Assembly: GCF_003048375.1 (NCBI RefSeq) | Contig: NZ_CP021642.1 | Location: forward strand, 62,001 to 126,000 | From: Campylobacter concisus | Lineage (GTDB): Bacteria > Campylobacterota > Campylobacteria > Campylobacterales > Campylobacteraceae | Direction of reading: 5' to 3' | Length of the DNA: 64,000 nucleotides | In this document: positions 52,451 through 61,563 of the stretch, one piece after another | Layout: every line of letters begins with the position of its first letter | Numbering within the stretch: the first letter of the stretch is position 1 | The notes under the pieces: model-generated | What the model was told of the DNA's origin: nothing | The model's database searches: none | The model's input: only the letters and a program-made list of their open reading frames with translations | Translations under genes and position numbers: made by a program

Positions 52451-52466
52451 ATGCAAAATCTATTCC
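52451..52466 (-). promoter_or_regulatory. Sigma-54 promoter upstream of fliK
   Basis: On the minus strand GGAA-TAGATT-TTGCAT: the Campylobacter -24/-12 consensus (GGAA-N6-TTGC[TA]) matches exactly, 35 bases before the fliK start. Middle flagellar genes are RpoN-dependent in this genus, so this fits the operon content. Confidence 0.88.
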
Positions 52467-52549
52467 AAAAATTAATTTCTTGATATCAGCTTAAAATTTA
52501 TAAAAGATTAAAAAAAATGGTAATATTTCATTTTAAAAAAGGAGTTTAA

Positions 52550-53845
52550 ATGAAAATGCACGACATGGCTACAAAACTTTTTACAATTCCTCGTTCTATC
52601 ACTGGAGAAGGATTTTTAAAAAGCTTGCAATTTATAAAAGATGAAGTTGAAAAAGATGGAGATAATTTTAAACTAAATATAACTTCTGTAAAAAGTGGCA
52701 CCAAGTGTTTTGACTGGACCATACCTCCCGAGTGGGTTGTGAGAGATGCTTATATAATCACACCTGATGGCAAAAAGATCTGCGAATTTAGTAAAAATAC
52801 ACTTAATTTAGTTAATTATTCTGAAAAAATTCATAAAAAAATGCATTTAAATGAGCTTTTACCACATCTTTATTCTTTGCCTCATTTGCCAAATGCTATT
52901 CCTTATGTTACTAGTTATTATGAAAGACGTTGGGGCTTTTGTATTAGTAAAAAAGAGTTAGATACTCTAAAAGACGGAGTTTATGAGGTTTTTATAGATA
53001 CTGATTTTAAAGATGATGGATCGCTTTATTATGGTGAATTATTTATACCTGCTACGACGCAAACAAAAGATGAAGTATTATTTTCAACATATCTTTGTCA
53101 TCCACAAATGGCAAATAATGAATTAAGTGGCCCTGTTGTTATGGCAAAACTTATAGAGTTTGTAAAATCACTGCAAGATAGGCGCTATAACTATAGGTTT
53201 TTAATTATTCCAGAAACAATAGGTTCAATAACTTATATAAGTAGGCATTTTAATGAGCTTAAACAAAATGTTAAAGCCGCTTTTGTTATGTCTTGTCTAG
53301 GGGATGAAAAGGCATATAGCGTTGTTTTAAGTCAAAAAGAGAATAGTTTAAGTGACAAAACAGCACTTCATGCTATAAAACACCTTACAAAAAATCCTAA
53401 AATTTATAGTTTTTTACATAGAGGAAGTGATGAAAGACAGTTTAATACCCCATCTTTAAACCTTGGTGCGGTTGCGATATGTCGTTCAAAATTTGGAGAA
53501 TTTAAAGAGTATCACAATAGTCTTGATGATTTAAATTTTGTTACACAAAAGGGATTAACTGGCGGGTTAAAATATGCGAAAAACATTGTTTTAAACCTTG
53601 AAACAAATGCAAAATTTAAGCTAAAAACAGTTTGTGAGCCAAATTTAGGCTCAAGAGGCTTAATATCAACAATAAATAAAGGCGCATATCCAAAACAGAT
53701 GCTCAATATAAGACATTTTTTAGCATATTGTGATGGAGAAACCGATGCTTTAGAAATAGCTGATATTTTAGGAATTGAAGTAAGAAAGTTAAAAGAAATA
53801 ATTGATCAGTTGATTAAATTTGATCTTATTGAGGAAGTCAAATGA
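52550..53845 (+). CDS. DUF4910/DUF2172 aminopeptidase-like protein with C-terminal winged helix (Cj1295-like)
   Basis: 431 residues, cytosolic. A DUF2172 insert lies in the first third (SGTKCFDWTIPPEWVVRDAYI); the DUF4910 M28-like core has TYLCHPQMANNELSG (His of the first zinc site), PETIGS and RGSDERQF. In M28 peptidases the equivalent of ANNE usually reads ANDN, so one metal ligand (Asp) is changed here. A C-terminal winged helix (about 350-431) follows. The C. jejuni relative Cj1295 is needed for a di-O-methylglyceric-acid variant of flagellin glycan. First gene of a six-gene operon. Note: no poly-G tract, unlike Cj1295. Confidence 0.8.
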   Translation: MKMHDMATKLFTIPRSITGEGFLKSLQFIKDEVEKDGDNFKLNITSVKSGTKCFDWTIPPEWVVRDAYIITPDGKKICEFSKNTLNLVNYSEKIHKKMHLNELLPHLYSLPHLPNAIPYVTSYYERRWGFCISKKELDTLKDGVYEVFIDTDFKDDGSLYYGELFIPATTQTKDEVLFSTYLCHPQMANNELSGPVVMAKLIEFVKSLQDRRYNYRFLIIPETIGSITYISRHFNELKQNVKAAFVMSCLGDEKAYSVVLSQKENSLSDKTALHAIKHLTKNPKIYSFLHRGSDERQFNTPSLNLGAVAICRSKFGEFKEYHNSLDDLNFVTQKGLTGGLKYAKNIVLNLETNAKFKLKTVCEPNLGSRGLISTINKGAYPKQMLNIRHFLAYCDGETDALEIADILGIEVRKLKEIIDQLIKFDLIEEVK

Positions 53846-55338
53846 TAAAGCATGTGAGTGATCTTTTAACAAAGACAGCAGCCAAATTTCCAGATAAAGT
53901 AGCTATTGTTTCAAACGGAAGTCGTATTACTTATACTGAACTTGATAGGCTTTGTAAAAAAGTTGCGAGTGAAATTTTAAGAAAGAACATTAAAAAAGAA
54001 CCTATTTTTATTCTGCTTAAAAAGAGTATTGAATGCATTGTGGCATTTTTAGGAGTTTTAAGAAGTGGCAATTTTTATGCCACTATAGCAGAAGATAGTC
54101 CAAAGGACAGAATTTTAAGTGTTGTAAAAAAAATAGAGCCAAAACTTCTAATTACAAGTAGTGAGTTTGATTTTTCGTATCTAAATTTACCTACCATTTT
54201 AACTAACGATTTTGAAAATTTTAATATTGATAAATCCCTTTTGGAAGATGCAAATATTGAGTTTGTGGATGCAGATCTTGCCTATATTTTATTTACATCT
54301 GGATCTACTGGAGAGCCAAAAGGCTTTGCAGTTAATCATTTAAATTTAATTGACTATATTACTTGGGCTGTGGAAAAATGGGGAATAAATGAGAGTGATA
54401 TAGTTGCAAATCAAGCTTATTTTCACTTTGATAAGTCTGTGCTTGATATTTATCCTTGTATTTTTACTGGCGCAACATTGCATATTTTACAAAATAGTGA
54501 TTATGCTTTTCCTAGCAAGATTATCGATTATTTTGAGGCTAATAACATCACACAAACAGGAATAACTCCACAAATTATCACATATTTTGCCAATACAAAT
54601 GCGCTAAAACCACTGCCATGTCTTAGACGCGTCTTTATATCAGGCGAGATAACGCCTATAAAACAGCTAAAAGAGTGGGTGAGAATGTACCCACATGCAA
54701 AATTTATAAATTTATATGGTGCAAGTGAGGTAACAGGGGTTTGTAGTTATTTTGTGTGCGATAGAGAGCTTAAAGATGATGAGATTTTACCAGCAGGAAG
54801 AGCTTGTGAGAATATTGAAATTTTTTTACTAGATGAGAATTTAAATATTATTAATAAGAATGATGTTGGAAAAAGAGGCATCGTTTATGTTCGTGGCAGG
54901 TGCGTGTCTCAGGGCTATTATAATGATGTCGAGCTTAGTAAAAGTGTTTTTATGCAAAATCCAATAAATAATAAATTTAGAGACTATGTTTATAAAACAG
55001 GGGATGTTGCTTATTACAATGATCGAGGTGAGTTAGTTTGTGTTGGTAGAGCTGATAATCAAATAAAACTAGCAGGACATAGAATAGAGCTTGGTGAAAT
55101 AGAAAGCATTATAGGTGCTATCGATGGTGTAAAGCGGACAGCTTGTGTTTTTTTGGATAACAAAATTTTTGCTTTTTATGAAAGCGATAGTGAAATCGAT
55201 ATAGCAAGTATTCTAAAGCAAAAACTACCAAGATACATGATTCCGAAATATTTTGTTAAAATTGATAAATTTAAATTAAATGTTAATACAAAGATTGACC
55301 GAAACGCGTTAAAAGATCTTGCAAAGGAGATGAGATGA
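53842..55338 (+). CDS. Amino-acid/acid-type adenylation enzyme (DltA/NRPS-A-like)
   Basis: 498 residues. Activates a carboxylic acid with ATP and passes it to a carrier protein. Core motifs: ILFTSGSTGEPKGFAVNHLN (A3), NLYGASEVTGVCSYF (A5), YKTGDVAYYNDRGELVCVGRADNQIKLAGHRIELGEIE (A7-A8) and the A10 Lys in TKIDRNALKDL. Smaller than NRPS modules, of stand-alone type. The carrier gene follows with a 4-base overlap, and the preceding gene overlaps it by 4 bases. The substrate is not certain; glyceric or an amino acid is possible. Confidence 0.88.
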   Translation: MIKHVSDLLTKTAAKFPDKVAIVSNGSRITYTELDRLCKKVASEILRKNIKKEPIFILLKKSIECIVAFLGVLRSGNFYATIAEDSPKDRILSVVKKIEPKLLITSSEFDFSYLNLPTILTNDFENFNIDKSLLEDANIEFVDADLAYILFTSGSTGEPKGFAVNHLNLIDYITWAVEKWGINESDIVANQAYFHFDKSVLDIYPCIFTGATLHILQNSDYAFPSKIIDYFEANNITQTGITPQIITYFANTNALKPLPCLRRVFISGEITPIKQLKEWVRMYPHAKFINLYGASEVTGVCSYFVCDRELKDDEILPAGRACENIEIFLLDENLNIINKNDVGKRGIVYVRGRCVSQGYYNDVELSKSVFMQNPINNKFRDYVYKTGDVAYYNDRGELVCVGRADNQIKLAGHRIELGEIESIIGAIDGVKRTACVFLDNKIFAFYESDSEIDIASILKQKLPRYMIPKYFVKIDKFKLNVNTKIDRNALKDLAKEMR

Positions 55339-55565
55339 ACGAGGCAAAAAAATTACTAACTGAAATTTCAAAAGGCGATATTAGTGAAAATGAACAAAAC
55401 TTATTGACAGGTGGAATTATAGATAGCCTTGATGTGATGGAGTTGGTTGAGCTTATATCAAAAAAATTTGGAGAAATAAATGCTAGTGATATAAATTCCA
55501 GCGATTTTGAAAGCATTAGCGCTATCAATAGCCTTATTAATAGAATAAAGGCAAAAAATGATTGA
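55335..55565 (+). CDS. Acyl carrier protein
   Basis: 76 residues. The phosphopantetheine attachment site is Ser31 in GGIIDSLDVMELVELISKKFG, an acidic four-helix carrier. Not the fatty-acid ACP: the motif region differs (DSLD without the preceding LGAD). Overlaps the adenylation gene by 4 bases and the AAC(3)-like gene by 8 bases, so it is made in a fixed ratio with both. Confidence 0.88.
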   Translation: MNEAKKLLTEISKGDISENEQNLLTGGIIDSLDVMELVELISKKFGEINASDINSSDFESISAINSLINRIKAKND

Positions 55566-56346
55566 ATTTAATGATAAAACCTACACCAAAGAAGATCTTA
55601 AAAATATACTTATTAATTTGGGGCTAAAAAAAGGCGATAAGCTTGTAGTCTCAAGCGAACTTTTTAAGCTAGGTAAAATTATTGGAGATAAAAATACTTT
55701 TTTAGATGAAATAATATCTACATTTTATGAAATTCTAGGTAGCGATGGTGATCTTATAATGCCAACCTTTACATATAGCTTTTGTAAGAATTTGGTTTAT
55801 GATAATCTCAACTCAAAAAGCACAGTCGGTGCACTTGGTGAATATTTTAGGCATAAGAGTGGCGTAATTAGGACAGATGATCCTATATTTTCTTTTGCTA
55901 TTCGCTCAAATAATCCAGAAATTTATTTAAAAGATTGCGATAGTTGCTTTGGAAAAGGTAGTGTGTATGATGTATTACGCGAGAAAGATGGCAAATTTTT
56001 AGCTTTTGGAGACGCAAGTAAAGGTTGGACATTTTATCTATATGCCGAAGAGATGGCAGGAGTTAGCTATAGATTTTTTAAAGATTTTAGTGGAAAGATA
56101 ATCGATAGAAAAGGTGTTGAAAAAGAAAAAACCATAAAATATTATGTTCGTCATCTTGATAGGAATAGTATTTTAGATAAGCAAAAGCAAATAGATATGC
56201 TTAAAAAAAATAAAAATTACAACTATGCAAAATTTGCAGGTGGTGATATGGCTCTTATTGACTTAAGACAGTATTTTGAAATTTTTGTAAAAACAGTAAA
56301 AATGGATGAAAATATACTTTTAAAAGAAGAAGGAGAACGTATATGA
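55558..56346 (+). CDS. AAC(3)-fold acyltransferase-like protein
   Basis: 262 residues. Fold and length match aminoglycoside N3-acetyltransferases: start KGDKLVVSSELFKLG, then GDLIMPTFTYSFC, SKSTVGALGEYFRHKSGVIRTDDPIFSFAIRS, and FGDASKGWTFYLYAEEMAGV. The active-site LHLAE stretch of antibiotic enzymes reads YLYAEE here, so the conserved His is missing. Context with an ACP and adenylating enzyme suggests it transfers a carrier-bound acyl group to an amino sugar. Drug resistance is unlikely. Confidence 0.78.
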   Translation: MIEFNDKTYTKEDLKNILINLGLKKGDKLVVSSELFKLGKIIGDKNTFLDEIISTFYEILGSDGDLIMPTFTYSFCKNLVYDNLNSKSTVGALGEYFRHKSGVIRTDDPIFSFAIRSNNPEIYLKDCDSCFGKGSVYDVLREKDGKFLAFGDASKGWTFYLYAEEMAGVSYRFFKDFSGKIIDRKGVEKEKTIKYYVRHLDRNSILDKQKQIDMLKKNKNYNYAKFAGGDMALIDLRQYFEIFVKTVKMDENILLKEEGERI

Positions 56347-56795
56347 AACAGTATGCTGATGATAATATTGTAGCTTTTGTTTTTAGAAATCTTAAGCGCG
56401 GTGATAAGATATTAGTTTTAGAAGATAATGAGACATATATAAATTTTTTAAAAGAGAGTGGATACGAAGTTATTAAAATGAGTGAAAATAGTTTTAATAG
56501 CAAATTAGTAGATGGCGCTTTTAGTTATCTTGGTCTTTGTGACATAAGCGTTAATAATCTTTTAGATAGTGCAAAAAAAAGTTTAAAAGATGGAGCTATT
56601 TGTGTATTTTGTTTCATTAAATCAGATGACTTTAGGGCGGATAGATTAAAGTCTTTTTCTAAGGAAGATATTAGGGATTTATTAAGGGATTTTGAAATTT
56701 TAAATATTGAAACTATAACTTTTACAACTCAAAATATGAAACAACTTAATGATATTTATATAGTAAGTGCAAAAAGGATTAAAAATGACAAATAA
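56343..56795 (+). CDS. Short methyltransferase-like protein lacking the SAM-binding glycine motif
   Basis: 150 residues. The order of strands and helices resembles the C-terminal two-thirds of a class I methyltransferase (KILVLEDNETYINFLKESGYEVIKMSENSF and a KKSLKDGAICVFCFIKSDDF motif-III-like stretch), but the usual GxGxG after the first strand is absent. Possibly a non-catalytic partner of the next gene, or a different enzyme. Contains an A8 run at 56573-56580. ATGA overlap with the AAC(3)-like gene; 11-base overlap with the next gene. Confidence 0.65.
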   Translation: MKQYADDNIVAFVFRNLKRGDKILVLEDNETYINFLKESGYEVIKMSENSFNSKLVDGAFSYLGLCDISVNNLLDSAKKSLKDGAICVFCFIKSDDFRADRLKSFSKEDIRDLLRDFEILNIETITFTTQNMKQLNDIYIVSAKRIKNDK

Positions 56796-57471
56796 GACTA
56801 TTAATGGGAGAGATTTGGCACAAGAATATTGGAATGGCAACTATTCTCAAGATATAGCACCAGTGTATCCAGTAAGCTATGTAACCGATTTTGCTTTTAA
56901 AAATTTTAAACCTGGTGGAAGAGTGCTTGATCTTGGATGCGGAATGGGCAGGCATGTTAAATTTCTAGCTCAATTTGGTTTTGATGCTTTTGGCTGCGAT
57001 TACTCACCGCAAGGAGTTTTACATACCAAAGAGCTTTTAAATAGTGCTGGTTTAAAAGCAGATGTTAGAGAGGGCAATATGTTAAATTTGCCTTATGATG
57101 ATGAATATTTTGATGGTTTGATTAATTTCGGAGTTCTTTTTTATGCAAAAGATGAAGCAGAATCAAAAAAAGCTTTAAGCGAAGTTTATAGGGTTTTAAA
57201 AAAGGGAGGTTCTGCGTTTTTTCAAGTAAGAAATTTAGAAGATGATAGATACAAACAAGCCATAAAAAAAAGCAAATACATAGCTGTAGCAAACCAGATC
57301 GAGGGAAGGATAGGATTTTTAGAAAACGGTATTCAAAATTATTATTATGATGAGGAAGTAGTCAAAAGATTGTTTGGTATCTTTGACAAAATAGAGATAA
57401 ACTATATAAAGAGAAGTTACGATAATGAATCTTATCAGATAAGTTATTACTTGATTGGTGTTTGGAAGTGA
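56785..57471 (+). CDS. Class I SAM-dependent methyltransferase
   Basis: 228 residues from the ATG at 56785, which has AAGGATT upstream; an in-frame start at 56767 would add six residues. Motif I VLDLGCGMGRHVKFL near residue 46, acidic strand GCDYSPQGVL, and post-II YFDGLINFGVLFYA are all clear. Probably O-methylates the acid carried by the ACP or the sugar. Last gene of the operon. C. jejuni Cj1300 is a plausible counterpart by context. Confidence 0.85.
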   Translation: MTNKTINGRDLAQEYWNGNYSQDIAPVYPVSYVTDFAFKNFKPGGRVLDLGCGMGRHVKFLAQFGFDAFGCDYSPQGVLHTKELLNSAGLKADVREGNMLNLPYDDEYFDGLINFGVLFYAKDEAESKKALSEVYRVLKKGGSAFFQVRNLEDDRYKQAIKKSKYIAVANQIEGRIGFLENGIQNYYYDEEVVKRLFGIFDKIEINYIKRSYDNESYQISYYLIGVWK

Positions 57472-57527
57472 GAGTGTTTTATTTATTCTAAAATTTTTCT
57501 TTTATAAAACAATAAACTCTTTTTAAT

Positions 57528-57533
57528 TATAAT
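57528..57533 (+). promoter_or_regulatory. -10 box TATAAT for typA
   Basis: Perfect TATAAT 32 bases before the TTG start, separated from the preceding operon. Confidence 0.55.
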
Positions 57534-57564
57534 CCATACCTTTAAATAAATTCAAGGATAACAT

Positions 57565-59417: not shown

Positions 59418-60260
59418 GTGAAATTTAATCCCAAAAGCAAATTTAATAATCTAGTTTGTAAATTTATCTGCTTGTGCCAAATGGAGCTGGCTAAATTTAG
59501 TCAAATTTGGGTTTTGGCTGCTGTAAATTTATAAAAGCTACTTTTTGTTTTTTGGGTTCTGGCGCTTCAAATTTATAAATTTATGCTTGATAAGTAAATT
59601 TGTCTGATCTGATGCCACCACAAGAAATTTATAGAGTAGTTTGCGTTTTACAAAGACTATTTTGCCCGTGAAAACGCAACTAGCTGTGGTGATTAAATTT
59701 GCTTTTTTGAATTTACGAAAGGGTTAAATTTTGGTTTTAATGGCTGTTAAATTTACTCACTTTGCTATCTCTGTATCCAAATTTTGATAGTGGCTAAAAT
59801 TTTAAATTTGTGGCTTGACTGATTTTACTTGCGTGGTTGTGGTGGCGTTGCGTAGAATAGCTACTTTATCCGCACAAAATGAGCTAAATTTAATGAAATT
59901 TAGTCCTTTCTTACTCTAAATTTGTAAATTTATGCGAGTTGGCGGAGCCTGAATGACTTAAATTTGGTCTTAGTGTGCAACTTTAGATATTGGCGCAAAT
60001 TTATATCGGCTGGTGCTTAGCTAAAGTTTGTGACTTTAAATTTCAAAAAAGATAGTCTGGAGCGAGGTTTATAGTAATATATAGGCTAAATTTAGTTTGG
60101 ATACTTGTAAATTTATCTAATTAGTAGATTAAATTTAGACCTTGTCTAAAAAACTAGCTTTTAAAATCGCTCTTGCAAGCTGTGAAATTTAGCAAATTTT
60201 TATCACTTTAAGCTACAAGAAAACAGCCTAAATTTATAAAAGTGCAGGGCGCAAATTTAA
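59418..60260. other. Gene-free region of about 840 bases with very dense AAATTT words
   Basis: No open reading frame of any quality. By hand count, about 30 AAATTT words lie in the roughly 890 bases between typA and the next gene, against about one expected at this base composition. No array periodicity, CRISPR-like repeat or RNA fold was recognised. Confidence 0.55.
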
Positions 60261-60683
60261 CTAACGGATCTTTTTTAGTTTTGACTTTGAAATTTTATAA
60301 ATTTTTGATGGTGTATCTTCAAAAAAACGTTCATCAACAACTTCATCAGCCACGCCTCTAGCCCAAGCTTCATCAAATTTCATACCATTTTTGTTTGCAC
60401 TACTTGAGTAAAGCCAGTCAAATTTGCTTAAGAATTTCTCATGTTCGCACTCTTTTACGACCCTGATCGCCTTTAAATTTGGATATAAAAATGTCGTCTT
60501 ACTTGAGCGACGGATGAAATTTTTATACTTTTTTGGCGCTCTAGCAAGCCCATTTAAAACGCTAAATTTAGCTGTCGTGATGAGGCAAGGCTTGCCTTCA
60601 CTTCGCATTTTGGCGTGGTTTATCTCCTTGTAGTCTTTGCTTAAAAAGCCAGCCGTTGTGTCAGTTTGCGCTAGGTATATCAT
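60261..60683 (-). CDS. Sua5/YciO/YrdC-like protein
   Basis: 140 residues from the ATG at 60683, which has AAGAAGAGAG upstream; an in-frame start at 60728 would add 15 residues lying inside the neighbouring gene. The N-terminal MIYLAQTDTTAGFLSKD matches the dsRNA-binding YrdC start, and FDWLYSSSANKNGMKFDEAWA matches its later strand. Shorter than TsaC, which makes threonylcarbamoyl-AMP. Overlaps the DMT gene by 23 bases. Its exact role, whether tRNA modification or something else, is uncertain. Confidence 0.72.
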   Translation of the reverse strand: MIYLAQTDTTAGFLSKDYKEINHAKMRSEGKPCLITTAKFSVLNGLARAPKKYKNFIRRSSKTTFLYPNLKAIRVVKECEHEKFLSKFDWLYSSSANKNGMKFDEAWARGVADEVVDERFFEDTPSKIYKISKSKLKKIR

Positions 60684-61563
60684 CTCTCTTCTTTGAAAGT
60701 AAAAATATGCATGATATGATGAGAGCAAAGCCTAAAAAGTCCCAAAAGACAAATTTTGTCCCAAGCCAAAAGTAGCCAAAAAATGCCGCGCTTAGTGGCT
60801 CTATGCAGGCTATCATGCTGGCTTTTGAGGCGCCAATGAGCTTGACTCCAGTCATATAAAAGCTAAATGCAAATATCGTGCCAAGCGTGATGACGGCGAG
60901 AAATGCTAGCCACTGCGCCGTGCCACTAAGCCCCGCAAACTCCCACACTCTCATATAAAGGCAAAGCACCACGCCACCTATCACCATGCCCCAGCCAAGC
61001 GTGAGCGTGACTGAGTATTTGGCATTTAGCCTTGCGGGAGCTAGGTTATAAACGCAGACGCAAACAGCGCTTACTAAGCACCAAAATAGCGCTTCTGGTG
61101 AGATGACAAGGGCTGAAATTTGCGCGTGCGTAGCAAGAAAAAAGACGCCAAGCATCGCGCATAGTAGTGCTAAAATTTCAAGCGGTCTTGGCGCTCGCTT
61201 CTCTTTTAGGCAGATGATGGCTAGGATGAGAACTGGCGCGGTGTATTGAATGACGGTCGCAACTGCGGCGTTTGAGAGCTCGATCGAGTAAAAGTAAGCA
61301 TACTGCGTCATCATTAACCCAAGCAGAGCGTATATAAAAAGCTCGGCCATCAGTTTTACGTCAGTAAGTGGCGCAAAAACGGCTTTTTTAGCCTTAAAAG
61401 CGTAGTAGAGTACGATAAAAGCGCCAGCTAGCAAGAGCCTATAAGGCACTAAAAAATCAGCGCTAATGCCTTGCGAGAAGAGATACTGCCCGCAAACTCC
61501 ACTAAATCCCCAAAGCACGCCACCAACTAGCGTAAGAAGCACTCCAAGTTGATGGCTGGGCAT
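60661..61563 (-). CDS. DMT-superfamily (EamA) permease
   Basis: 300 residues, ten predicted helices in two EamA repeats: first repeat ends SNAAVATVIQYTAPVLILAIICLKEKR, second SKASMIACIEPLSAAFFGYFWLG. Exporter of unknown metabolite. Second member of the family in the window (see 14277). Five bases after the DUF799 gene, same operon direction. Confidence 0.86.
   Translation of the reverse strand: MPSHQLGVLLTLVGGVLWGFSGVCGQYLFSQGISADFLVPYRLLLAGAFIVLYYAFKAKKAVFAPLTDVKLMAELFIYALLGLMMTQYAYFYSIELSNAAVATVIQYTAPVLILAIICLKEKRAPRPLEILALLCAMLGVFFLATHAQISALVISPEALFWCLVSAVCVCVYNLAPARLNAKYSVTLTLGWGMVIGGVVLCLYMRVWEFAGLSGTAQWLAFLAVITLGTIFAFSFYMTGVKLIGASKASMIACIEPLSAAFFGYFWLGTKFVFWDFLGFALIISCIFLLSKKRDDIPSAN

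Follow-up and report, generated by a model that had tools for sequence, protein, structure and literature searches.

A candidate Cj1295-like acyl-decoration cassette, gained between fliK and typA in Campylobacter concisus

What does the compact operon of six genes that separates fliK from typA in Campylobacter concisus do? We considered it within a stretch of 64,000 nucleotides (NCBI RefSeq assembly GCF_003048375.1, contig NZ_CP021642.1, positions 62,001 to 126,000), referred to here as the window, where six plus-strand open reading frames (ORFs) run head to tail from 52550 to 57471, as an original prediction made from the letters alone had correctly described (Table 1). Our answer, to which we give a probability of about 0.6, is that the operon, gained between fliK and typA, works as a self-contained cassette for acyl decoration, of one kind with the Cj1295 system of Campylobacter jejuni. 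It would attach a methylated aminoacyl group to an amino nonulosonate, most likely the pseudaminic acid (Pse) of flagellin. The class of system, in which a small acid is activated and transferred to a surface sugar, was already the core of the original prediction; it remains the best explanation and is well supported, with homologues of genes 1, 2 and 4 in loci L058, L059 and L077. The sequence itself shows the gene families, the serine of the carrier protein, Asp235 of the adenylation pocket, the gain of the operon and a core that recurs with exchangeable modules. The substrate, the acceptor site and the chemistry of an acyltransferase without its catalytic histidine are what we infer beyond that.

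Table 1. Positions in the window of the six genes and of the features that bear on their origin
Feature	Position	Strand	Description	Basis
Gene 1	52550..53845	+	DUF4910/DUF2172/HTH_47 metallopeptidase-like protein, homologue of Cj1295 and CA_C2195 (3k9t)	Pfam, alignment
Gene 2	53842..55338	+	Stand-alone amino-acid adenylation enzyme, pocket code DKLGFSLGVK with Asp235	Hand-mapped code
Gene 3	55335..55565	+	Acyl/peptidyl carrier protein, phosphopantetheine site GGIIDSLD	Pfam PP-binding
Gene 4	55558..56346	+	AAC(3)-fold (Antibiotic_NAT) acyltransferase, with Leu for the catalytic His in TFYLYAE	Pfam, alignment
Gene 5	56343..56795	+	Shortened, degenerate homologue of the gene 6 methyltransferase family, S-adenosylmethionine (SAM) motif I lost	Profile comparison
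Gene 6	56785..57471	+	Class I SAM-dependent methyltransferase, motif VLDLGCGMG	Pfam
Gained segment	52506..57559	.		Missing from the 98-99% identical fliK-typA junction of siblings G014 and G016
Sigma-54-like promoter of the divergent fliK operon	52453-52468	-	TTGG-N8-TTGC; outside the cassette	Motif match; empty-site genomes have the motif too

Comparison with the Cj1295 region and of gene order across Campylobacter, which had been proposed as a check, found clear homology and a core that recurs in pse loci. In C. jejuni-like genomes a DUF4910 gene follows pseB-pseC, with an AAC(3) gene nearby and pseF-pseG-pseH downstream; in L058, which has the published order pseB-pseC-Cj1295, the two proteins are 53% identical to gene 1 and 43% identical to gene 4 and belong to the same families, of three domains and one domain respectively, with carriers and a methyltransferase around them. 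The link to Cj1295 suggested earlier therefore stands, with the correction that Cj1295 is the DUF4910 “aminopeptidase” corresponding to gene 1 (PMC3068675) and not an adenylating enzyme. DUF4910 occurs in 9 of 48 genomes of the genus and AAC(3) in the identical nine, a co-occurrence expected by chance at about 6e-10 if genomes were independent, though kinship makes this figure an overstatement; family-wide, DUF4910 is found in 60 of 153 genomes.

Across the Campylobacteraceae the core of DUF4910 and AAC(3)-fold acyltransferase is combined with interchangeable acyl-supply modules. The first, in L058, consists of an FkbH protein (TIGR01686, 311 bits), FabH, acyl carrier proteins (ACPs) and a methyltransferase, and fits a glyceroyl group. 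The second has an adenylation enzyme and an ACP with a GNAT and/or Formyl_trans_N protein, and the third, that of the window, an adenylation enzyme and an ACP with genes 5 and 6, found otherwise only in C. gastrosuis and genome G035. The operon thus differs from the Cj1295 locus, which makes di-O-methylglyceroyl Pse, in having an amino-acid adenylation enzyme rather than an FkbH/FabH glyceryl supply, in standing alone outside the pse locus without a homopolymeric tract, and in its histidine-less gene 4 and degenerate methyltransferase gene 5. The lack of FabH, which had been thought to set the operon apart, is shared by many Campylobacter versions. Phase variation of the Cj1295 sort was rejected, as no run of at least 7 G or C occurs within the operon.

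In C. gastrosuis PS10 (L018/L019) and G035 (L045) the counterparts of genes 2-6 stand in the same order (65/38/60/46/57% identical) and have the pocket code and TFYLYAE motif of the window, but they occupy another chromosomal site; C. gastrosuis has an additional, histidine-containing AAC(3), and G035 a Fic/DOC-family gene between the homologues of genes 1 and 2 (L045:7063-7815). A looser resemblance is found in clusters such as L044, L072 and L062, where the same core and gene types form one operon and the adenylation enzyme is 44-51% identical, but the pocket code is different (DNLFLCLDVK), tailoring is by formyl or acetyl rather than methyl groups, and the AAC(3) histidine is intact. In a sister genus (L068-L070, L072-L075) the site of the DUF4910/adenylation/AAC(3) cluster is conserved: it repeatedly has the lepA side on one flank and gyrA-like genes on the other.

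The operon itself bears the marks of a recent arrival. All five junctions overlap, by 4, 4, 8, 4 and 11 bases from gene 1 to gene 6 (with the ATG at 56785 as the start of gene 6), including the last two pairs, which had been taken as non-overlapping; a purine-rich stretch lies 5′ of all six start codons, and all six reading frames are intact and coupled. The G+C content of the operon is 30.7% compared to 41.7% for the remaining window, the minimum among the window's 4.9-kb stretches, so the low value first noticed in a 60-base sample (about 32%) was real and somewhat understated. Third-position GC is 0.16-0.25 in the operon genes and 0.47 in typA. In 10 of the 11 relative loci fetched with typA, fliK directly adjoins typA and the operon is absent. 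The flanks of the two closest genomes, G014 and G016, are 98-99% identical to the window up to position 52505 and resume at 57560, with about 67 bp where the window has a 5.05-kb segment. As more distant relatives have the empty arrangement too, a recent gain in the lineage of the window appears more likely than repeated loss. Carriage on plasmids was rejected, as gene 5 had no match among 72,556 plasmids and gene 2 matched there only at below 60% identity. The gained segment displaced the ancestral promoter region of typA: the siblings read TTTGGCTATAATCTGCCCC, and window positions 57472-57564 differ before typA.

The divergent neighbours of the operon are, by eye, fliK, flgD and flgE, and flagellin had been proposed as the target on the strength of this sigma-54 flagellar operon. 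We rejected the adjacency as evidence, since the site is empty in relatives and the cassette occupies other chromosomal sites in two other genomes, which makes it uninformative on function. The sigma-54-like motif alone is weak, because 8 matches of the TTGG-N8-TTGC type were observed in the window compared to 4.3 expected.

The link to flagellin rests on other evidence. We consider Pse bound for flagellin the most likely acceptor because, by analogy, the core of the Campylobacter relatives sits in pse loci or beside flagellin, the latter in G002 and G036, and Cj1295 is required for the N-acyl change on flagellin Pse (PMC3068675). In the genome of the window, one block (C1:1732-1741 kb) contains a full set of pseB, C, F, G, H and I (PseF and PseG called by similarity and gene order) together with flagellin and a PseD-type Maf. 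A second pathway, of the NeuB type (NeuB TIGR03569), is encoded alongside an amidotransferase-like gene in a locus of polysaccharide type, and DUF4910 accompanies polysaccharide genes in other phyla (PMC4000134). The same cassette might accordingly decorate a sugar of the lipooligosaccharide or capsule, either a NeuB-type nonulosonate or another amino sugar, in place of flagellin; given where the relatives' core lies and what Cj1295 acts on, we regard this as unlikely, though a serious candidate. The flagellin-side cluster of G036 and G002 (L038/L039) is large, with several AAC(3) and methyltransferase genes, a second adenylation enzyme and an ornithine-cyclodeaminase/mu-crystallin protein, and possibly places several aminoacyl groups on one flagellin glycan.

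For decoration of flagellin Pse, we infer the following order of steps. Gene 2 would adenylate an alpha-amino acid and load it on the gene 3 carrier protein, at the serine of the phosphopantetheine site. The amino acid would next be methylated on the carrier, most likely at its nitrogen, by gene 6, which may act in a complex with the degenerate gene 5; N-methylation is the simplest assumption because the formyltransferases and GNATs in the same place of sister clusters would act on amines. Gene 1 would ready the amino nonulosonate, in the simplest case by taking off an N-acetyl group, and gene 4 would transfer the aminoacyl group from the carrier to the freed amine. Flagellar glycans with N-acetylglutamine, glycine or N-methyl-glutamyl groups exist (PMC5207245, PMC3958885). 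For Campylobacter, we found no description of such a decoration and chemistry in the literature searched.

Which acid is activated can be judged in part from gene 2, an AMP-binding (Pfam) protein of the amino-acid adenylation family that scores 317.0 bits against a cut-off of 317.4 for NCBIfam TIGR01733. We mapped the ten GrsA pocket positions by hand; Asp197, at pocket position 235, aligns with the Asp of LgrA adenylation domains in a HMMER alignment, and Asp235 is present in 26/26 adenylation enzymes compared. This Asp is a mark of alpha-amino-acid substrates. With Lys at position 236, the substrate may have an acidic side chain, as Glu and Asp do. The three cassettes share the code DKLGFSLG(V/I)K despite a protein identity of just 65%, while most other Campylobacter adenylation enzymes (those of L059 and L077 are 48-51% identical to gene 2) read DNLFLCLDVK. 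The code moreover covaries with the tailoring genes, the former occurring with genes 5 and 6 and the latter with GNAT/formyltransferase, which is what tailoring of the amino acid while on its carrier would lead one to expect.

The original prediction favoured a product like di-O-methylglyceric acid, that is, a glyceric or other hydroxy acid O-methylated by gene 6 as in the C. jejuni pathway. A methyltransferase is indeed present and the DUF4910/AAC(3) core is common to both systems, but the product does not agree with gene 2: its substrate is probably an alpha-amino acid, and glyceric acid is unlikely because the pocket keeps Asp235 and the C. jejuni-like locus uses FkbH, the usual glyceryl loader. 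Neither FkbH nor FabH was found by Pfam or NCBIfam among the six operon genes, and the best NCBIfam models for gene 2 are amino-acid adenylation and DltA. A hydroxy acid is hence improbable. As in DltA/DltC, a stand-alone adenylation enzyme is paired with a carrier protein, but we rejected a Dlt system, since gene 2 scores 277-287 bits on the DltA models compared to cut-offs of 476-560 (equivalog 276.8 vs 559.85) and the operon has no DltB or DltD gene. The sfmABCDE genes of Shewanella were considered and dropped, as the genes differ.

The proposed role of gene 1 follows that of its homologue Cj1295. Pfam assigns it DUF4910 (E 1.6e-82) together with DUF2172 and HTH_47, and it is homologous over its full length (E 2.3e-88) to CA_C2195 of Clostridium acetobutylicum (PDB ID: 3k9t), with which it shares a three-domain architecture and a context of carrier protein and aminosugar acyltransferases (PMC4000134). 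The authors of that structure were doubtful that the protein is a peptidase and suggested that it takes part in making modified sugars (PMC4000134). Hitchen et al. described Cj1295 as an aminopeptidase-like protein encoded directly after Cj1293 and Cj1294, and proposed that it cleaves off the C5 acetamido group, which a methylglyceroyl group can then replace (PMC3068675). Compared to M28 zinc peptidases (PMC4000134 as reference), gene 1 retains His184 and His322 but not the full set of zinc ligands: Asp195 of CA_C2195 is Asn190 and Ser191 is Gln, with Gln186 at the position of the catalytic Asp; the catalytic Asp and Glu are lacking. The Asn is common to nearly all relatives, C. jejuni-like ones included, as nearly all DUF4910 proteins of Campylobacter and relatives (L016-L077) read CHP(Q/S)MANNELSG and only L040, L041 and L071 keep the Asp. 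If L058 is truly the equivalent of Cj1295, the Asn would be compatible with function, because Cj1295 is functional.

Gene 4 is a clear Antibiotic_NAT protein (E 8.6e-22, 78.3 bits compared to a gathering score of 25). The motif of this family is TxPhiHPhiAE, and AAC(3) enzymes are believed to depend on its His/Glu dyad (PMC8956665). In gene 4, as in both cassette relatives, the motif reads TFYLYAE. In a tree of 51 AAC(3)-fold proteins, three distinct groups, each well supported, are without the catalytic His (window/G035/C. gastrosuis; G002/G036; four Helicobacter clusters), and all of them retain the Thr/Ser and Glu of the motif. The Helicobacter proteins (L023, L024, L026, L037; TxVVYVE, TFMMFLE) lie in DUF4910 clusters, and their loss of the His is separate from that in Campylobacter; any adenylation enzyme in these clusters has a different pocket code. 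An aminoglycoside resistance name for gene 4 was rejected, since it scores 47 compared to an NCBIfam AAC(3) cut-off of 270 and lacks the His. The His-to-Leu state is found in three genomes, at a ratio of nonsynonymous to synonymous substitution rates (dN/dS) of 0.12-0.17. Because no AAC(3) protein other than gene 4 was detected in its own genome, a working operon would mean that gene 4 acts without the His or that another enzyme makes the transfer. Our more specific idea, put forward tentatively, is that the AAC(3)-fold enzymes of carrier-protein sugar-decoration clusters lost the His repeatedly (three times in the sample compared) and use another mechanism or acceptor, gene 4 and the methyltransferase/pseudo-methyltransferase pair together installing the methylated aminoacyl group on the nonulosonate.

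In that pair, gene 6 keeps motif I, and its core is invariant in 8 relatives. Gene 5 has no convincing Pfam match (best E 0.0024, below the cut-off) but aligns to the gene 6 profile in hhalign (probability 97.6, E 3.2e-12), with ILVLEDNETY at the position of motif I (LDLGCGxG) and the GxG absent from 3/3 members. It is intact in three genomes with dN/dS of 0.2-0.4, a constraint weaker than that of its neighbours (0.41 vs 0.10-0.14 in the close pair) yet below 1. Gene 5 is a probable pseudoenzyme, to judge by these alignments, and plausibly a partner or regulator of gene 6. Among 397 genomes of the class, full-length matches were found only in the genome of the window and G035 (the C. gastrosuis gene came by another route); weak matches in four further genomes were ordinary gene 6-type methyltransferases (L093-L095) or lay inside an unrelated large protein (L092). 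The AlphaFold model of gene 5, built from two sequences, was too poor for a fold search (mean predicted local distance difference test score 56.9) and was left unused. That the operon is decaying and genes 4 and 5 are inactive relics producing no decoration is very improbable, for though the catalytic His and the SAM motif are gone and gene 5 evolves faster, the six coupled frames are intact, gene 4 is constrained with its Thr and Glu kept and its loss repeated three times, and the dN/dS of gene 5 is still well below 1.

Several observations nevertheless speak against decoration of flagellin Pse with a methylated aminoacyl group. In gene 1 one zinc ligand is Asn and the catalytic residues typical of M28 are absent; gene 4 is without the His of the dyad, so that its transfer activity is not assured; the pocket code is hand-mapped and gives no more than a hint of the amino acid. 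The cassette, outside the pse/flagellin glycosylation locus, is unlinked to any nonulosonate gene in its own genome, and since PseH is present acetylated Pse is made too.

Elsewhere in the window, a low-G+C stretch (about 59500-60500) lies between typA and a transporter gene; at its end is a minus-strand ORF (60261-60728) whose product looks, by eye, like Sua5/YciO proteins.

The repeated loss of the catalytic His calls the accepted AAC(3) mechanism into question outside the resistance enzymes. More generally, the Cj1295 locus can be recast as one member of a modular family, in which a constant DUF4910 and AAC(3) core is served by exchangeable supplies of glyceroyl, formyl/acetyl-aminoacyl or methyl-aminoacyl groups. 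Such a modular view allows flagellar glycan structures to be predicted, and the predictions tested, throughout Campylobacter, and offers natural variants for probing the role of the unsolved DUF4910 protein.

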